DNA from: an uncultured Pseudomonadota bacterium
GTDB lineage: Bacteria; Myxococcota_A; UBA796; SXON01
Assembly (NCBI GenBank): GCA_903844155.1
Contig: CAIMSU010000268.1
Span: 1 to 64,000, forward strand
Direction: 5' to 3'
DNA length: 64,000 nt
Under the pieces are notes generated by a model, which saw only the letters and a program-made list of their open reading frames with translations, did not search any database and was not told where the DNA came from. The stretch's first letter is position 1, and each line of letters opens with the position of its first letter. Below, piece by piece: positions 7,677 through 9,767 of the stretch. The position numbers and the translations under genes are program-made.

Positions 7677-9767
7677 CTACCCGCCCCGCGGCACCCCCGC
7701 GACCGCAGACATCTGCCCGCGGTCCAGCACCTTCCTGTCCAGCAGCAGGTCCCGAAGCGCCTCCAGCTCCGCGCGATGCTCGCGCACGAGATCCCGCGCG
7801 CGCTCGCGCTGCTCCGCCAGCAACCTCAAGACCTCGGCCTCCAACCGCTCCTTCCCGCTCTCCGACGGAACCGGCTCCGGCTGACCGGCCCGCCCCTCCG
7901 TCCACACCCGCACCTCCGTCCCAAAGCCAAGCTGCTCGACCAGCCCCCGCGCGATCCCCGTCGCCCGCTCCAGATCCTGCGCGGAGCCGATGGACAGGTC
8001 GGTGAGGAGCAGATCCTCGGCTTCACGCCCGCCAAACAGGATGCAGATGTGGTCGATGAGCTGGGCGCGCGTGGTGATGTACTTGTGGGCTTGATCGCCG
8101 TATTGTACGAAGCCGAGCGCGCCCGCCAGGTCGCCGCGGATGCTGATGCGCTCGATCGGCGGCGCGTGCTCGCAGTGCAGCGCGCAGATCGCGTGCCCGG
8201 ACTCGTGCGTGGCGACGACGCGCTCTTCTGTTGGTGTAAGCTTGGGAAGGTCGAGGTGAGCGGTGAGGGCGTGCTCGACGTCGATGACCTCCGTGGGACC
8301 GGTCAGCGCCTCGCGGATCCGCCGCCGGGCGATGGTCCGGCCGAGCGCCTGGAGGTGGTCGCCCGAGAACCGGCTCGTGCCGCCTTCCACGACGCCGGAC
8401 GTGCGGCGAACGGCGTAGTCCATCGCGGCGTTTGACAGCTTCAACTCGAGCTTCTGGTCGTAGACGGAAAGGATGGCGCGCCGGTCGTCGGCGTCCGGGA
8501 ACGGGATGTGGAGCTGGAACTCGAAGCGGCCAGGGCGCAGGAGGGCTGGGTCGAGGGACTCCGGAAGGTTCGTCGTGCCGACGACGAAGACCATCTCGTT
8601 GCGGCGAAAACCGTCCATCTCCGTCAACAGTTGGTTGACCATGGAGTGCTCGACGCCGCTGCCGGTGTACGTCCCCCGCGCGGTCGCGAAGCTGTCCAGC
8701 TCGTCAAACACGATGATGGCCGGGGCCGCCTGCCGCGCCTGCAGGAACACCTGCCGGATGCGCTCCTCGCTCTCGCCGACCCAGCGGCTCTTCAACTCCG
8801 GGCCGCTGACGATGGTCACGGCAGCCCCCAGCGACGTCGCCATCGCCTTGGCGAACAGGGTCTTGCCGGTGCCGGGCGGACCCCAGAAGATCATGCCGCG
8901 CGGGACGAGCTGCTCGATCCGTGCGATGCCATCGACATCCTGGAGGGTCGCGCGGAGGGCGAGGAGGTCGAGGATCTCAGACCGCAGGCGCGTCTTGACG
9001 AGGGTGTAACCGCCGATGTCGCGGTCGAGGTCGACGTTGGGGACGGCGACGTCGCTGGACAGGGTGGCCTGCCGGAGCTGATCGTAGGCGGGGCGCGGGT
9101 CGAGGGGGAAGTCTTCGCCGACGATCGCGGGGAGCACGCGGCGCAGGCGGGCGGTGTGCAGACCGGAGACGTGGGTGTAGAGCGCGTAGGGGTTGAACTC
9201 ACGGCCGAACTTCTGGGCTTCGCCCTGGGTGACGACGTAGCGCAGGCGCTCGCGCGCAATGCCGAGGATCGCGACGCGCCGTGGGAACAGCGTCTCGATG
9301 ACCTTCGGCAGCGTCATCGACGGGTCCTTGAACCCCACCCACACGAGGTTCGGGTTCTCGTACAGCAGCGGGATCACCTCCCGCGCGTCTGTCGTCAGCC
9401 CGCCCTGCCCGGTCACGAGCAGGTCCAGATGGGGCAGCACGATGACCCGCTGCTCCGTGGCCCCGCGCACAGCGTCCCGAAGCTGGCCGATCATCGTGGC
9501 GACGATGCCGCCTGCCATCGGCGGCGTGGTGGCGTTCGGGTCCGGCCGCCCGTTGAGGTACACGGACTGCAGCCCGGCTGCCTTGATCCGGTCGCGAACG
9601 CACCGCCAGAGCCAGGGTCCGAGGCCTTTGTCACACTCGATCAGCACGGGCAGGTCCGCGCGCAGCGCCTCCACGATCGCGGTCAGCTCGGCTGGATAGG
9701 CCGCCTCGACCGCCTCAAAACCGGTGATGGCCAGGGGAAGGTCGCGTATCGGGATGGTCACGGACAC
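7677..9767 (-). CDS. Soluble FtsH-like AAA+ ATPase with M41 metalloprotease domain
   Basis: 696 aa. Residues about 1-270 form an unfamiliar N-terminal domain that looks like a second, inactive P-loop-like fold (it has no Walker A). The AAA+ domain follows: Walker A GPPGTGKT (about 296-303), Walker B IIVFDELDS (351-359) and the sensor/arginine-finger region ALLRPGRFE (408-416). The M41 zinc site is HESGH (521-525), with the third ligand probably D598 in GSAQDLERAT. Unlike true FtsH there is no transmembrane segment, so it should be cytosolic. A C-terminal coiled coil (about 630-680) ends the chain. It unfolds and degrades, or remodels, protein targets. It starts 3 bp after the 187-aa gene. All catalytic residues appear present. 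Confidence 0.93.
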   Translation of the reverse strand: MSVTIPIRDLPLAITGFEAVEAAYPAELTAIVEALRADLPVLIECDKGLGPWLWRCVRDRIKAAGLQSVYLNGRPDPNATTPPMAGGIVATMIGQLRDAVRGATEQRVIVLPHLDLLVTGQGGLTTDAREVIPLLYENPNLVWVGFKDPSMTLPKVIETLFPRRVAILGIARERLRYVVTQGEAQKFGREFNPYALYTHVSGLHTARLRRVLPAIVGEDFPLDPRPAYDQLRQATLSSDVAVPNVDLDRDIGGYTLVKTRLRSEILDLLALRATLQDVDGIARIEQLVPRGMIFWGPPGTGKTLFAKAMATSLGAAVTIVSGPELKSRWVGESEERIRQVFLQARQAAPAIIVFDELDSFATARGTYTGSGVEHSMVNQLLTEMDGFRRNEMVFVVGTTNLPESLDPALLRPGRFEFQLHIPFPDADDRRAILSVYDQKLELKLSNAAMDYAVRRTSGVVEGGTSRFSGDHLQALGRTIARRRIREALTGPTEVIDVEHALTAHLDLPKLTPTEERVVATHESGHAICALHCEHAPPIERISIRGDLAGALGFVQYGDQAHKYITTRAQLIDHICILFGGREAEDLLLTDLSIGSAQDLERATGIARGLVEQLGFGTEVRVWTEGRAGQPEPVPSESGKERLEAEVLRLLAEQRERARDLVREHRAELEALRDLLLDRKVLDRGQMSAVAGVPRGG

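Follow-up and report, generated by a model that had tools for sequence, protein, structure and literature searches.

FtsH ternary systems are the closest described relatives of the locus analyzed here. The main text of Kaur et al. 2020 (PMC7159879) describes them as a MoxR-vWA pair combined with a third component in which an active FtsH-type AAA domain is preceded by another one that has neither P-loop nor Walker B. According to the same text, the vWA protein of a simpler subtype has a helical N-terminus and its radical SAM protein stands alone, radical SAM is tied to peptide processing, and the role of these systems in conflict or cell death is a prediction by the authors. A literature search gave nothing on FtsH ternary systems beyond this paper. 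In the accessible parts of the literature on MoxR/vWA conflict systems, on M41 together with Cdc48, and on soluble or anchorless FtsH, no double-AAA soluble M41 protease was found, and FtsH is not named in the accessible part of PMC8195603.

The window, which is the whole stretch of 64,000 nucleotides that was analyzed, contains an operon with the gene for an AAA protease and the following features:

12423..13049, minus strand: NrdG-like radical-SAM gene (Fer4_12; Radical_SAM under its cut-off)
11404..12426, minus strand: fvmX6 gene (PF20004), its start overlapping the radical-SAM stop
about 10331..11368, minus strand: lipoprotein-like gene in the interval between X6 and X5, of uncertain membership in the system
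9771..10334, minus strand: fvmX5 gene (PF20003), ending 3 bases ahead of the protease start
7677-9767, minus strand: protease ORF, 696 aa, GTG start
9048..9767, minus strand: predicted degenerate AAA+ module of the protease, residues 1-240, from alignment, AF2 and fold searches
8253..9062, minus strand: active AAA domain together with its linker and lid, residues 236-505, with KSRWVGE as pore loop
7680..8252, minus strand: M41 peptidase region, residues 506-696, with HESGH at 521-525 and D598
6432..7280, plus strand: M50-type membrane peptidase gene inside the operon, between protease and X3-analog
6119..6358, minus strand: fvmX3-analog gene (PF20002)
2976..6122, minus strand: fvmX7 gene, 1048 aa, PF20005 across residues 1-362

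The products of the fvmX3-analog, X5, X6 and X7 genes all scored over their Pfam cut-offs, and the Pfam label of each is that of an "FtsH ternary system" domain. Since these four genes and a radical SAM gene are in the operon, the protease should be the third component of an FtsH ternary system. With good probability, the system belongs to the simpler MoxR-vWA-FtsH subtype, and its genes are divided between two places.

The domain order of the protein is an apparently inactive AAA+ module (residues 1 to about 245), a Cdc48-D2-like active AAA domain (about 248-500) and an M41 peptidase domain (511-688). Pfam assigned AAA to residues 292-422 (4.8e-41) and Peptidase_M41 to 511-688 (9e-33), with no Pfam match before residue 284 and no FtsH_ext match in the protein. 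Walker A is GPPGTGKT (296-303), Walker B lies inside IIVFDELDS (351-359), and LRPGRF occupies 410-415. The zinc site HESGH (521-525) is accompanied by D598, which, as in FtsH, is assumed to supply the third metal ligand, so that the M41 domain has the HExxH motif and the Asp expected of an FtsH-type protease. The ATPase and zinc motifs are thus intact, as had been noticed from the sequence at first reading.

A search of GTDB genomes yielded 150 relatives, of which 80, mostly with titles of Myxococcota- or Planctomycetota-type organisms, were kept; after 8 incomplete or short loci had been dropped, 72 complete ones were left. HExxH is present in all 72 of these and GPPGxGK[ST] in 71, and H521, E522, H525 and D598 are invariant in the 50 rows of alignment A2. 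Compared to four relatives of the same genus, dN was 0.10-0.15 and dS 0.62-0.96; the gene is under purifying selection and therefore maintained.

The N-terminal membrane helices of FtsH membrane proteases were not found. The Kyte-Doolittle maximum over 19 residues was 1.39, at residue 304 within the AAA domain, versus 2.37-2.98 in four FtsH-type control proteins, and the top value among the 80 relatives was 1.87. Residues 1-270 contain neither a membrane helix nor a known FtsH N-terminal domain, either of which would have argued against the loss of the anchor and the gain of an N-terminal domain proposed in the earlier note. The protein is predicted to be soluble and to act as a zinc protease driven by ATP, with an additional, inactive motor domain at the N-terminus.

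This N-terminal part had been described as about 270 residues of unassigned sequence. It indeed received no assignment from Pfam, NCBIfam or a PDB sequence search, whether the window protein, a profile or the homologue from locus L132 alone was used. Its length needs correction, because the AAA linker DRDIGGY begins at residue 248 and the module therefore comprises about 240-250 residues. The label "unassigned" did not hold at the level of structure, and a module of this kind, an inactive AAA, is already described in the main text of PMC7159879. An alignment (A1) of 24 sequences, the window protein and 23 of 40 homologous stretches, showed conserved ECDK- and PHLD-type stretches at the sites expected for Walker A and B, followed by the DIGGY linker at the end; the window protein has ECDKGL and VIVLPHLD at these positions. 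By inspection, Walker A and B motifs were absent from the module in all 24 rows. The structure prediction that had been suggested for this region was performed with AF2, using the window protein and 49 of the 80 kept loci as input, and gave a pLDDT of 81.8 for the entire protein and 87.8 for residues 1-240 alone. The resulting N-terminal model has an AAA+ fold and matched p97 N-D1 in Foldseek with 1.5e-6. VIA-align 2 aligned it to Rpt and p97 AAA domains with Z scores of 12.2-13.2 among the matches listed; the top-scoring rows for Rpt and p97 D1 had 12.8-13.2 over about 200 residues, and the rows for this model showed an rmsd of about 4-5 and 11-17% identity. The modelled structure indicates that the N-terminal part is a degenerate second AAA+ module without nucleotide-binding motifs, and this first AAA is judged catalytically dead by the missing motifs.

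Where the active AAA domain comes from is a separate question, since the protein had been interpreted as an FtsH homologue that lost its membrane anchor and gained an N-terminal domain. A true FtsH that shed the anchor and took up an extra AAA-like domain would agree with the presence of the M41 domain and with the best fold match of the whole AF2 model, which was FtsH (3kds, E 1.7e-29). The AAA part alone, however, scored 203 bits with the CDC48 model, at the D2 positions, versus 165 bits with FtsH, two relatives behaved alike, and the nearest PDB sequences to this part were VCP/p97. For comparison, two FtsH paralogues encoded by the window organism reached 528 and 503 bits with the FtsH model. 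The complete protein stayed below the cut-offs of both families, with 266 bits for FtsH_fam (cut-off 600) and 200.6 bits for CDC48 (cut-off 802.65), and the M41 part obtained 106 bits with FtsH_fam. In a tree of 42 AAA domains, sampled without PAN, Mpa, NSF and Vps4, the family of the window protein (18/18) formed one clade with a support of 100/100, the FtsH clade (8/8) closed without it at 100/99, and the sister of the family was a Cdc48-like D2 from a Nostoc plasmid (84/85). An AU test rejected neither the family plus FtsH as a single clade (p 0.253) nor the family plus Cdc48 D2 (p 0.442). Clade, score and AU results therefore place the protein outside the sampled FtsH while being compatible with an ancestor shared with FtsH. 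The scenario of an FtsH that lost its anchor is unsupported, because the active AAA falls outside the FtsH clade of this tree and has its best score with Cdc48 D2, and such an origin is regarded as unlikely.

Two further observations concern AAA proteins in this context. The same genome encodes another FtsH-like protein (L004:1066-2610(-), contig G000:C232) that matches FtsH_ext, has an AAA domain as well as two hydrophobic segments, and gave no M41 match. Some protease relatives carry an intein of about 440 aa (Intein_splicing plus LAGLIDADG_3) within the active AAA, around pore loop 1, namely those at L154:10001-13600, L069:6097-9693, L070:10162-13752 and L065:10677-14225. In L154 the insertion point is WVGE/SEEN, and the carriers are one Planctomycetota-titled locus and loci of the phylum of the window organism; in L186 an equal insert starts in the protease, and the contig ends within it.

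Many relatives have the genes in one uninterrupted series, radical SAM-X6-X5-protease-X3a-X7-MoxR-vWA. Neighbors were counted by tblastn with the window proteins and with MoxR and vWA of loci L056 and L078, considering only loci with enough flank, so that a miss may represent divergence or a gene beyond the flank. X5 was within 1.5 kb of the protease in 63/74 loci and the X3-analog within 1 kb in 55/65; X7 was nearby in 43/59, X6 in 36/68 and MoxR in 19/48 loci. The M50 gene is at the equivalent place in L040, L041 and L042, with additional inserted genes in L041, and is probably an insertion and not a core part of the system. For fvmX2, no match was obtained in the genome, and the control of the same search was also without a match. 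PADLOC gave AAA-level matches only, and scans for sigma-70 promoters and Rfam families each found 0. An ORF at 2371-3096(-) was rejected as a vWA or X gene, being the shadow of a gene at 2389-2979(+) that was called superoxide-dismutase-like from the appearance of its sequence.

Several features around the operon are recorded in their own right. Two lipoprotein-like genes, 13233-13991(-) and 10331-11368(-), flank the radical SAM-X6 pair. Their products have a C-terminal domain in common (193 aligned columns, 43% identity) as well as DTDTDT runs, had no Pfam match over cut-off, and are possibly standalone payloads. Between protease and M50 gene, at 7323-7622, a sequence of about 140 nt occurs twice in direct orientation, as imperfect copies spaced at about 161; both copies include a palindrome-like TTTATTCGGGAGTACCCGAA stretch. 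Directly upstream of the radical-SAM gene, at 13057-13137, is an inverted repeat of 31 nt with 87% complementarity.

The radical SAM gene leads to a second explanation, which is compatible with a ternary system: the M41 domain may serve maturation by trimming a specific precursor, be it an X protein or a peptide modified by radical SAM, that is presented by the AAA ring. The radical SAM gene belongs to the conserved neighborhood (43 of the 64 loci having at least 4 kb upstream, by the same tblastn counts), and the link of radical SAM to peptide processing in the main text of Kaur et al. 2020 (PMC7159879) points in the same direction. Against this stands that no precursor peptide gene was identified, and a function in maturation is considered doubtful. 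Ternary systems are also expected to include a peptide effector or NEFF1; no effector was identified here, which counts against the ternary reading.

The core pair of the ternary system is not part of the operon. Within the 64-kb window, no match to the MoxR and vWA of the system was better than E 0.1 and 0.3, respectively. An ordinary vWA protein at 29994-31907(+) (VWA_2) was rejected as the vWA of the system, which had no match in the window better than E 0.3. That the organism has no MoxR and vWA at all was also rejected, since both are on another contig of its own genome:

G000:C295:42351-43328: MoxR (PF20030 bpMoxR) with the loop GRPGTAKS
G000:C295:43328-44569: vWA (PF19997 ivWA, "vWA domain found in the FtsH ternary systems")

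Four other genomes make up the rest of the genus, and they likewise have MoxR-vWA and the protease on different contigs. The split in the window is not a contig break, because ordinary genes come after X7 here, the first being the superoxide-dismutase-like gene on the opposite strand, and also in L040 and L042. In another genus (g166), X3a-X7-MoxR-vWA is apart from the protease in 2/3 genomes (L109, L111); part of the gene maps, including the flanks of L040 and L042 and the g166 splits, came from a crude GC-bias gene caller. In the genus of the window organism, the system is split over two loci. A scan that requires a single operon with every part will overlook systems of this kind.

Because MoxR and the dedicated vWA are outside the window, their cooperation with the protease is deduced from co-occurrence. 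The N-terminal domain of the protease was present in 42 of 377 genomes of the phylum. It occurred in all 38 genomes with fvmX5 and in all 34 with ivWA over the cut-off; at E 0.001, ivWA was found in 44 genomes, ten of them under the cut-off. Fisher tests of the co-occurrence with the N-terminal domain, which ignore shared ancestry, gave 4e-41 for ivWA and 5e-48 for fvmX5. Against the cooperation, ivWA did not pass the cut-off in eight of the 42 genomes; among them are some incomplete bins and three genomes of a divergent branch. That the protein is a stand-alone housekeeping protease of the cytosol, beside the fvmX genes by chance and independent of a distant MoxR-vWA pair that serves otherwise, would fit the position of this pair outside the operon in the genus but is quite improbable in view of the continuous gene order in many relatives, the N-terminal domain in 34/34 sampled genomes with the dedicated vWA and the patchy presence in 42/377 genomes.

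Some records of relatives deserve mention. In one genus, three large genomes (G338, G367 and G369) have an open frame of 889-1083 aa that includes a diverged form of the N-terminal domain, with E about 1e-48 to 1e-50, and they gave no fvmX5 or ivWA matches. L118, titled Bifidobacterium breve, has 83% identity to the N-terminal domain of the window protein and an operon like that of the window's genus, and L145, titled Comamonas, resembles Myxococcus loci in its gene order; both titles look wrong. A phage collection gave 183 matching records, none covering 80% of the query.

Returning to the protease as third component of a ternary system, the protein would most likely be a cytosolic unfoldase-protease driven by MoxR-vWA, as predicted from sequence and models. 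The cytosolic, partner-directed role suggested in the earlier note appears likely from the operon context. Six subunits may form a soluble two-storey ring, in which the dead N-terminal AAA ring would be a scaffold or docking collar for partners. The Cdc48-D2-like ring would pull the substrate through the WVG pore loop and thereby unfold it, and the M41 ring would cut it. The MoxR-vWA chaperone pair with X5, X6 and X7 could deliver substrates or complexes, or dismantle them, and a product modified by the radical SAM enzyme may be a trigger or a payload. The likely outcome would be controlled proteolysis in the conflict or cell-death response predicted in the main text of Kaur et al.

A further, tentative proposal is that the "FtsH" of the ternary systems represents a separate class of AAA+ proteases, soluble double rings with a Cdc48-type motor and M41, a dead first ring as collar, and control by MoxR-vWA. 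If true, bacteria would have in this class a single-chain equivalent of a Cdc48 that feeds a protease. If the protease is active, ternary systems would execute through ATP-driven proteolysis, and a soluble double-AAA M41 protease would join the known layouts of AAA+ proteases. The protein offers good access to a conflict system that is known, as far as the searches show, from prediction alone: its protease site is fully conserved and easily mutated, it is predicted to be soluble, and close homologues are present in culturable Myxococcus strains.

Compared to FtsH, AFG3L2 and YME1, the window protein has the same M41 domain with HExxH and Asp behind the AAA domain, and a fold match over about 450 alignment columns, but it has no membrane helix or FtsH extracellular domain and possesses an extra, apparently inactive AAA. 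Its pore loop is KSRWVGE, versus FVEMFVG in FtsH-type membrane AAA proteases. Tandem AAA modules, an active AAA nearest to D2, a similar pore loop and the DIGG linker are shared with Cdc48, p97 and archaeal VCP-like proteins, which differ in that the window protein has an apparently dead first AAA and a C-terminally fused M41. The two active AAA domains and the N-domain that characterize the Cdc48 family are not both present, as its first AAA is degenerate and a Cdc48 N-domain was not found. The FtsH ternary systems, as described in the main text of PMC7159879, agree with this locus in the third component with an inactive and an active AAA, in the X-domain neighbors and radical SAM, in the dedicated vWA and in the MoxR with a GxPGTAKS loop. 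The genes differ in being at two loci and in an operon interrupted by an M50 gene on the opposite strand, and the M41 domain and Cdc48-like AAA seen here are not mentioned in that main text, which contains neither word. The window protein is an ordinary member of a published system and largely known; what it adds to the published picture is a conserved M41 site, an AAA of Cdc48-like character and an operon that is split.
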